A DNA stretch of 64,000 nt, from contig NZ_PEKV01000002.1 of assembly GCF_002796975.1 (NCBI RefSeq), forward strand, positions 78,854-142,853, read 5' to 3'. A model generated the notes under the pieces. The model ran no database searches. It worked only from the letters and a program-made list of their open reading frames with translations, and had not been told where the DNA came from. Position numbers and translations under genes: made by a program. Shown piece by piece: positions 9,459 to 50,273 of the stretch (the first letter of the stretch is position 1; every line of letters begins with the position of its first letter). Source of the stretch: Ferrovibrio sp. GTDB lineage: Bacteria; Pseudomonadota; Alphaproteobacteria; Ferrovibrionales; Ferrovibrionaceae.

Positions 9459-9968
9459 GTGACCGGCCCCGGCAACCCCGCCTCCCCCCCTGCTAAGTCC
9501 TTGTTCAAGCCCGCAGAAGGCCCGGTCCGGCTACAGACCGGTCAGCGCTATCTGGGACTCGATCTGGGCACCAAGACGATCGGGCTGGCGCTCTCCGATG
9601 CCGGGCATCGCATCGCCTCCCCCTACCAGACGCTGGCGCGCAAGAAATTCGGCCAGGATGCCGCCGAACTGCAGAAGATCATCGCCCGCGAAGGGGTGTC
9701 GGCGCTGGTGCTGGGCCTGCCAGTCAACATGGACGGCACTGAGGGGCCGCGCTGCCAGGCGACGCGAGCCTTCGCGCGCAATTTCGCCCAGCTGCTGCCG
9801 CTGCCGATTGCGCTATGGGATGAGCGGATGAGCACCATGGCCGTGCAGCGGATGATGGTGGACGAGGCCGACCTGAGCCGGGCGCGGCGCGCCGAGCTGG
9901 TCGACAAGCTGGCCGCCAGCTACATCCTGCAGGCCTATCTCGACTGGATCGACCGCCAGCCGGTCTAG
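9459..9968 (+). CDS. ruvX: YqgF/RuvX family RNase H-fold nuclease
   Basis: A 169-residue protein of the YqgF (RuvX, Holliday-junction resolvase-like) family, also implicated in 16S rRNA 5'-end processing. Motifs in order are [16 protein letters not shown] with the first acidic residue, [26 protein letters not shown], and the C-terminal [14 protein letters not shown] with the last Asp. The first 25 residues are a disordered Pro-rich extension. It may start internally, but no better start was seen. It is divergent from gatCAB. The phased-repeat array begins 7 bases after its stop. Confidence 0.93.
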
Positions 9969-9974
9969 CGGCGG

Positions 9975-10093
9975 CCCGTTTCGGCCTGTTCGCGGGCCTG
10001 TTACGTCCCATTGGAGGCCCGTTACATCCCGTTCCGTCCCGTTAGAGCCTGTTTCATCCTGTTGAGTCCTGTTTCGTCCTGTTAACTCCCGCC
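9975..10093 (+). repeat. Helically phased short-repeat array, 11 copies plus one degenerate
   Basis: The core CCYGTT followed by about four variable bases recurs. Cores start at 9975, 9985, 9997, 10007 (CCCATT), 10018, 10028, 10038, 10048, 10058, 10068 and 10078, with a degenerate CCCGCC at 10088. Spacing is 10 bases except for one 12 and one 11. The spacer tetramers differ, so this is periodic core conservation, not simple copying. Its left end resembles the right end of the array at 50102-50191 in the same orientation. Function unknown. Confidence 0.8.
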
Positions 10094-10198
10094 TAAGCCA
10101 TTGGCATTCTGTGCAAAGTCATTGATTCCGATCTACGATGTCCAACAGCGGCGATGGTCTGATCCTGAAAACGCCCCGGCGAACCACCTCAGGTGTTG

Positions 10199-10210
10199 GA
10201 ACAAATGTTC
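10199..10210. promoter_or_regulatory. GAAC-AAAT-GTTC palindrome
   Basis: A perfect GAAC-N4-GTTC inverted repeat in an AT-rich patch. This form equals the SOS box of Gram-positive bacteria, whereas most alphaproteobacterial LexA sites are direct repeats GTTC-N7-GTTC. No gene starts downstream on either strand, so the role is unclear. Confidence 0.25.
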
Positions 10211-10294
10211 TATTTTATAGGAATAATAGCATAAACCTTAATCGACGGCAAGAGGCGAAGCCGCGAGCCGTCGACCATTGGGTAGCCGAGATGC

Positions 10295-11065
10295 TCAGTC
10301 CATTCCGAGCTGACGGTAGATACGCTTGGTATAGTCGCCAAAGCGTTCGGTGGTCTTCACATCCAGCGTGCGCGGAAACGGCAGTTCGATCTCGAAGAAA
10401 TCGGCCATGCGCGCCGGGCCGGCCGTCAGCACCGCGCAGCGCGAGCCGAGGAAGACCGCTTCCTGGATGCTGTGCGTGACGAACAGGATGGTCTTGCGGC
10501 TTTCCTGCCAGATGCGCAGCATCTCCAGATTCATCTTCTCGCGCGTCAGTGCATCCAGTGCGCCGAAGGGCTCATCCATCAGGATCAGCTTCGGATCGTG
10601 TACGAGCGCACGGGCAATCGCGGCACGCTGCTGCATGCCACCGGAAAGTTCGTAGGGATATTTGCTCTCGAAACCGGCGAGACCGACCATGGCCAGCAGG
10701 TCGCGCGCGCGGTCTTTCGCGGCCTTGCGCGGCAGACCGAGGATATCGGCCGGCAGCAGCACATTGTCGAGGATGGTACGCCATTTCAGCAGCAGGGCCT
10801 GCTGGAATACCATGCCGACATCGCGGCCCGGCGTGAACGGCGTGCCGCCGCCGATCTCGACGGTGCAGCCGGTATCGGCTTCGTGAAGATCGGCAAGAAT
10901 TTTCAGCACGGTGGTCTTGCCGCAACCGGAAGGCCCGACCAGCGAGACCAGATCGCCCTCATTGACGTCGAAGGTGACGTTGGAGACAGCGACGAAATCC
11001 TTGCCGCGACCGCGATAGGTCTTGCGAACGTTTTCGAGGTGGATGAACGGCGTCACGACAGCCAC
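10295..11065 (-). CDS. ABC transporter ATP-binding protein, nitrate/taurine/pyrimidine type
   Basis: A 256-residue ATPase of the TauB/SsuB/ThiZ class. Walker A is GPSGCGKTT, the signature is LSGGMQQRAAIARAL, and Walker B is LILMDEPFGALD. The switch His follows in FVTHSIQEAVFLG. It energises import with the permease at 13998-14795 and the binding protein at 15707-16705. Its start overlaps the end of the aldolase gene by 13 bases, and it is the last gene of the minus-strand operon. Substrate cannot be read from the ATPase. Confidence 0.93.
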   Translation of the reverse strand: MAVVTPFIHLENVRKTYRGRGKDFVAVSNVTFDVNEGDLVSLVGPSGCGKTTVLKILADLHEADTGCTVEIGGGTPFTPGRDVGMVFQQALLLKWRTILDNVLLPADILGLPRKAAKDRARDLLAMVGLAGFESKYPYELSGGMQQRAAIARALVHDPKLILMDEPFGALDALTREKMNLEMLRIWQESRKTILFVTHSIQEAVFLGSRCAVLTAGPARMADFFEIELPFPRTLDVKTTERFGDYTKRIYRQLGMD

Positions 11066-49991: not shown

Positions 49992-50101
49992 GGCGCCGCC
50001 TCCGCCGGGGCGCGGCGGCAACGAAACCCTGCTGAACTGAAAACCCCCGCCATTTTCGCCTTTTTCCGCACTTTTCCGGGTTTATTTCATGTCGAGAACC
50101 T

Positions 50102-50191
50102 GCTTATTTGAGCTTATAGCAGGCTTATTTTGTCTTATACGAGCTTGTTTTGCCTTGTTACCGCGCCTGTCTGGCCTTGTAGCGGGCCTAT
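50102..50191 (+). repeat. Second helically phased short-repeat array, nine copies
   Basis: The core CTTRT or CCTRT recurs. Core cytosines are at 50103, 50113, 50124, 50134, 50144, 50154, 50166, 50176 and 50187. Spacing is 10-12 bases. The right end (CCTGTCTGGCCTTGTAGCGG) aligns with the left end of the 9975 array in the same strand. The preceding 50 bases are also weakly periodic. Confidence 0.7.
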
Positions 50192-50273
50192 ACGGCGTGA
50201 AGCACAAATTTTCCTTGAGAATCAGCGACCTATCGCTCGGAACATTATAGCAACCCGGCGGCCCGCAGGCAAG

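Follow-up and report, generated by a model that had tools for sequence, protein, structure and literature searches.

Correia/NEMIS elements, MITEs and REP/BIME sequences are short multicopy intergenic repeats with polymorphic insertion, and some of them carry outward or internal promoters. Regularly spaced short motifs are known from other settings: the Bacillus trp leader presents tandem motifs, unstructured and at regular spacing, which are bound by the ring protein TRAP, sponge RNAs of the CsrB/Rsm type hold many copies of a short motif, and phased A-tract or iteron-type DNA arrays consist of direct repeats near the helical period. The locus described here lies next to ruvX in a window of 64,000 nucleotides (the window being the whole stretch of DNA that was analysed). 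Like Correia/NEMIS, MITE and REP/BIME repeats, the present element is short, multicopy, intergenic, polymorphic in its insertion and equipped with a putative promoter, but half of it is a 10-bp phased array, no terminal inverted repeats were recognised, and the array words vary between species at one locus. Its direct repeats, close to the helical period, recall A-tract and iteron arrays; unlike these, they contain no A-tracts of at least 4, include a sister family with an exact period of 10.00 bp, and occur at tens of promoter-tied chromosomal loci.

The genes ruvX and that of an ABC ATPase are convergent and separated by a 326-bp gap, the left part of which is occupied by the array:

9459-9968, plus strand: ruvX, convergent neighbour, with 6 bp between its stop codon and the end of the element
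9975-10093, minus strand: phased array, sense unit AACRGG-N4, with plus-strand gaps of 10, 12, 10, 11, 10, 10, 10, 10, 10 and 10
10295-11065, minus strand: gene for an ABC transporter ATP-binding protein of the taurine/nitrate/sulfonate type, on the same strand as the element and next to it upstream

On the plus strand, CCYGTT cores begin at 9975, 9985, 9997, 10018, 10028, 10038, 10048, 10058, 10068 and 10078; together with CCCATT at 10007, a non-CCYGTT core within the array, they span 9975-10083, and a degenerate unit, CCCGCC at 10088, closes the array. The first-pass annotation had counted eleven CCYGTT cores spaced almost exactly one helical turn apart. The array itself is real, with ten such cores plus the CCCATT, and the helical wording is loose: the best-fit period is 10.15-10.35 bp for this type of array (family I) and 10.00 bp for the sister family (family II), not 10.5. 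Ten cores were observed against a maximum of 3 (mononucleotide) or 5 (dinucleotide) in 5000 shuffles, the longest phased chain was 7 against 2 (5000 shuffles), and lag-10 identity reached 0.55 in the array against a shuffle maximum of 0.43-0.45 (2000 shuffles); shuffles of equal composition thus fall short of the observed phasing. Measured at an 80-bp scale, the array is the top 10-bp periodicity of the whole window (0.66; runner-up 0.47; mean 0.254, sd 0.055). Three phased CCYGTT cores occurred 39 times in the genome from which the window comes (G000, 4.23 Mb; other G handles denote relatives), and the reversed-pattern control gave none. The earlier dismissal of a CRISPR holds, as a 6-bp core with a 4-bp spacer contrasts with CRISPR repeats of about 23-50 bp and unique spacers of similar length.

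The array proved to be the 3' half of a dispersed minus-strand element of about 277 bp (10251-9975) and not a feature of ruvX. Upstream of the array, in the direction of reading, the element comprises:

10246-10251, minus strand: -35-like hexamer TTGCCG, its TTG kept in most of 24 aligned copies despite a diverged spacer
10223-10228, minus strand: extended -10 hexamer TATTAT, preceded by TGC, at a distance of 17 bp from the -35, with a conserved TCCTAT after it
10199-10210, minus strand: palindromic operator GAACATTTGTTC (GAAC-N4-GTTC), directly 3' of the -10, from sequence alignment
10151-10198, minus strand: variable leader, with an inverted repeat GCATA-N6-TATGC in most copies that is absent from the window copy
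10073-10150, minus strand: conserved 80-nt block (TTGGACATCG..AATCAATGACTT..), reaching the first array units; covariance model R1, E 1e-16

The architecture shared on the minus strand reads TTGNNN, 17 bp, TGCTAWWAT-TCC, GAAC-N4-GTTC, leader, block and AACNGG-N4 array. In the 23-24 aligned copies of promoter, operator and block, the -35, the -10 and the operator were retained while the spacer had diverged; GAAC-N4-GTTC was exact in 20 of 23 element copies, and the block consensus was GCTGTTGGACATCGTGGAT..AAATCAATG.CTTGGCAC... The R1 match to the window block corresponds to G000:C25:88926-89003. A conserved hairpin in the block was considered and rejected (four pairs, zero double changes). No Rfam family matched 11 array loci at gathering score, the best hit in the window stretch being c-di-GMP-I-GGC at 17 bits, far under its cut-off of 59. 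An imperfect 15-bp inverted repeat at 10242-10274 of the window spans the -35 region, just past the end of the ABC gene.

Array counts rest on patterns and models. With CCNGTT in place of CCYGTT, the three-core search gave 87 matches in G000, at about 25 loci as counted from the list, and the block model R1 found 20 copies in G000, 5 in G005 and 1 in G004; beyond these genomes it gave only a weak match in G018, inside a predicted coding sequence. The arrays of G004 and G008, in which CCGGTT and CCAGTT cores occur too, escaped a two-core CCYGTT search of genus-mates. Related genomes do carry such arrays, and the earlier remark that core and period are kept while spacers vary was borne out across the copies. 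When a four-core pattern was run over 84,980 species and viral contigs, the matches inspected were mostly simple or unrelated tandem repeats, and among those listed and inspected only Desertibaculum subflavum seemed related. Several viral contigs (L245, L248, L257, L283 and similar) displayed an unrelated, recurrent CCGTGTCCTCGGTGGTGAA..CCCGTTT-N3-CCCGTTT with 10-bp spacing. No description of such elements or arrays was found in the papers searched.

Dispersal of the MITE/REP type is evident from the multicopy intergenic distribution and from insertion polymorphism at ruvX: in G001, G004 and G005 only 2-5 bp separate ruvX from the stop of the ABC gene and the array is absent, which is most simply explained by gain of the window copy in this lineage. 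Elsewhere the copies are old: an array occupies the accA gap of G000, G005, G004 and G008, and one lies upstream of uppP in G000, G005 and G004. Losses are also apparent in G001, where the dapA-like locus keeps the promoter module without an array and where the array is lost or reduced both there and at accA. A gap register of 10...10, 11, 10, 12, 10 is common to many copies, and arrays were therefore probably inherited as whole units rather than regrown at each locus. The empty site in three relatives, the dispersed copies lying mostly beside gene ends in G000 and the reduction in G001 would all suit a selfish, non-autonomous mobile repeat, the array being a degenerate 10-bp minisatellite without host function. 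This explanation deserves to be kept in mind but is unlikely, as old orthologous copies keep promoter and operator while their surroundings diverged, and the accA and uppP arrays have been maintained in several species with changed words. Nor were the marks of such an element recognised: inverted repeats within 9950-10300 do not frame it, and no target duplication was seen by eye at the ruvX junctions.

The orientation of the arrays relative to promoter-like sequences was uniform. Within 260 nt on the AAC strand, LexA-like boxes of the form GT[TA][CTG]-N7-GTTC were found upstream of 28 of 76 arrays of this genus and downstream of none. For the exact GTTC-N7-GTTC the counts were 12 of 77 upstream and none downstream. 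Among the 43 family I arrays, 19 had a palindrome of the GAACANNYGTTC type upstream and none had one downstream, and extended -10 sequences numbered 21 upstream and 0 downstream. Fisher tests on these polarity counts yielded p values of 3e-10 and 3e-7, which overstate independence because the copies are kin. By the same patterns, no box was recognised at about 24 of the 43 arrays in family I and 12 of the 33 in family II.

This polarity bears on an alternative offered in the first-pass annotation, that the array is a Rho utilisation site ending the ruvX transcript. The plus strand does present a C-containing core (CC) each 10 nt, and an intrinsic terminator was not found in the gap after ruvX. 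The proposal has nevertheless become improbable: ruvX orthologues in G001, G004 and G005 have neither an array nor room for one, the predicted promoter is on the AAC strand, the C-rich strand is antisense at uppP, an intrinsic-terminator-like hairpin already lies 5' of the array at accA, and in family II it is the AAC strand that is rich in C. The functionally relevant strand appears to be the minus strand, and the earlier suggestion of RNA contacts spaced 10 bases is close to the reading favoured below, in which, however, the contacts would be made by RNA of the strand opposite to the ruvX transcript.

Concerning the identity of a possible repressor, the published alphaproteobacterial LexA box is GTTCN7GTTC (PMC3323433, PMC9578287), and the GAAC-N7-GAAC carried by the lexA promoters of G000, G005, G001 and G008 agrees with it. 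The elements resemble alphaproteobacterial LexA (SOS) promoters in their GTTC half-sites, in an N7 direct repeat that overlaps the -10 (family II and some family I) and in sharing this box with lexA of the genus. They differ in that the sequence downstream is an array and not a repair gene, and in that the window copy has GAAC-N4-GTTC, a LexA-box form known from Gram-positives (PMC3323433). The elements may be under LexA control, less convincingly so for the window copy because its operator is an N4 palindrome, unlike the N7 direct repeat at lexA. The housekeeping genes rplM, cmk and purB sit behind such promoters, which is odd for an SOS regulon. Upstream of uppP, a GTTC/GTAC-N7-GTTC box was seen by eye in species with and without arrays (L312-L319, L129, L130), a pattern that would suit SOS control of uppP in the genus. 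Weaker LexA-domain matches in G000, G005 and G008 resemble Lrp/AsnC regulators by eye and were set aside.

A second site of this kind lies within the window itself, before arfB, where both the box-pattern search and the periodicity scan led (box at 50254-50240, minus strand):

50239-50272, minus strand: predicted promoter TTGCCT-17-TATAAT with the LexA-like box GTTGCTATAATGTTC, from the box search
50099-50193, minus strand: arfB leader array, the second phased array of the window and third in kind, with AYAAGC-N4 as its sense unit
49991-49572, minus strand: arfB (ribosome rescue), the gene behind the second array

Comparison of relatives indicated that the word of the unit changes while the period stays. 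The family I unit of G004 and G008 is CCNGTTCGAT. At uppP, place and orientation are the same in G001 but the array there is another, ACGAACNCNN. Four phased CGAAC-N5 units (family II) were matched 55 times in G005, 39 in G008 (a number that includes some family I arrays matching the same pattern), 10 in G001 and 2 each in G004 and G000, and the control gave 0 everywhere. At cmk the array belongs to family I in G000 and to family II in G005, and at a GST gene to family I in G004 and G008 and to family II in G005, each time in the same orientation. Family II arrays reach 16-17 units, are abundant in G005 and G008 and are found mostly in leaders behind LexA-like promoters (L372-L405). Their units hold GCGAAGC, a known mini-hairpin sequence, and the complementary words GCCAG and CTGGC (L372-L389). 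Phased repeats of about 20 bp (GACCTGACTC-RGCACCRATA type) adjoin CGAAC arrays (L398-L401, L388), and other 10-bp repeats, of the GGCGATAAGC type, lie immediately 5' of them (L392, L393, L395, L397). A unit word that changes between species at constant period, strand and place would be expected if multivalency and single-strandedness outweighed the exact word.

The exact period of family II is a difficulty for a DNA-level array, in which one protein would bind at each helical turn, or AA/GC alternation would bend the DNA, and a filament or wrap beside the promoter would act in regulation or chromosome organisation. The conserved core at near-helical spacing with variable spacers, the alternation of gaps of 10 and 11 in G004 and G008, and a resultant of 0.87-0.92 still obtained at 10.5 bp for family I in G000 and G004/G008 speak for such a structure, and family I by itself is compatible with a DNA array and an RNA platform alike. 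Family II, however, holds to a period of exactly 10.00 bp in arrays of up to 16-17 units, with a resultant of 0.53-0.66 at 10.5, which weakens the idea, already put forward in the first-pass annotation, of a protein on one DNA face at every turn. The strong strand bias of composition and the fixed polarity relative to the promoter count against it as well, and we consider a DNA-level role rather unlikely.

The sense (AAC) strand is A-rich and poor in T, with a T content of 10.9% for family I arrays and 3.7% for those of family II, compared with 20-21% for the flanks; predicted folding of the sense RNA was equal to, or barely better than, that of shuffles. Owing to the shared ancestry of copies, polarity and composition should not be counted as fully independent evidence. 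Taken together, one-strand composition, fixed polarity and an exact, non-helical period favour a multivalent single-stranded platform at the RNA level over a one-face DNA array. We tentatively prefer to see in the elements regulated transcripts, with the array serving as a platform of tandem single-stranded binding sites, a reading that we would put somewhat short of even chances. A sigma70-type promoter read on the minus strand would be active, LexA or a related repressor would sit on the operator, and transcription would rise after DNA damage. The product would be an unstructured, U-poor RNA, free-standing here and a 5' leader in the case of uppP, arfB and similar genes, in which a short A-containing core every 10 nt may offer tandem single-stranded sites to an oligomeric RNA-binding protein. 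The array would work much as the TRAP-bound trp leader does, with another core, another gene setting and a spacing of 10 nt where that leader has about 5. CsrB/Rsm sponges are comparable as multicopy RNAs with many short motifs, and some of the family I units contain GGA, but many family I units and family II are without it and the units lie outside hairpin loops. A sponge for Hfq or CsrA was rejected, since the motif is not common to the array families, and so was a LexA decoy array (GAAC half-sites at 10 against 11 bp), which the arfB array does not contain.

Translation of the element is a further alternative to the preferred RNA platform. The block could encode LLDIVDxKINxLA and the array a decapeptide repeat that is alike in all three frames; an open frame does run through the block in some copies, and array stops are about half the shuffled number (67 against 124; 16 against 34). 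We regard a short protein gene as very improbable, given that indels of 1-2 nt break the frame in several of the 23 block copies, including that of the window, that starts share no frame, that variation extends beyond third positions, and that a frame with a Shine-Dalgarno-like site was present at only 16 of 77 loci.

Judged from the sequences at hand, the elements look like a candidate undescribed family of DNA-damage-type transcription units. A broader possibility, which we hold as rather doubtful, is a class of regulated RNAs in which SOS-type promoters would drive decamer-array transcripts, with unit families that coexist in a genome, take each other's place at given loci from species to species and each have a multivalent RNA-binding partner of their own. 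Dozens of elements in one genus have a common promoter type, strand and 10-nt period and differ in the repeat word, even at orthologous genes. Period and sequence are in this way uncoupled by a natural experiment, which points towards a system of multivalent recognition of which we have found no description. If LexA controls the elements, tens of non-coding transcripts would be induced by DNA damage at the same time as the leaders of some housekeeping genes.
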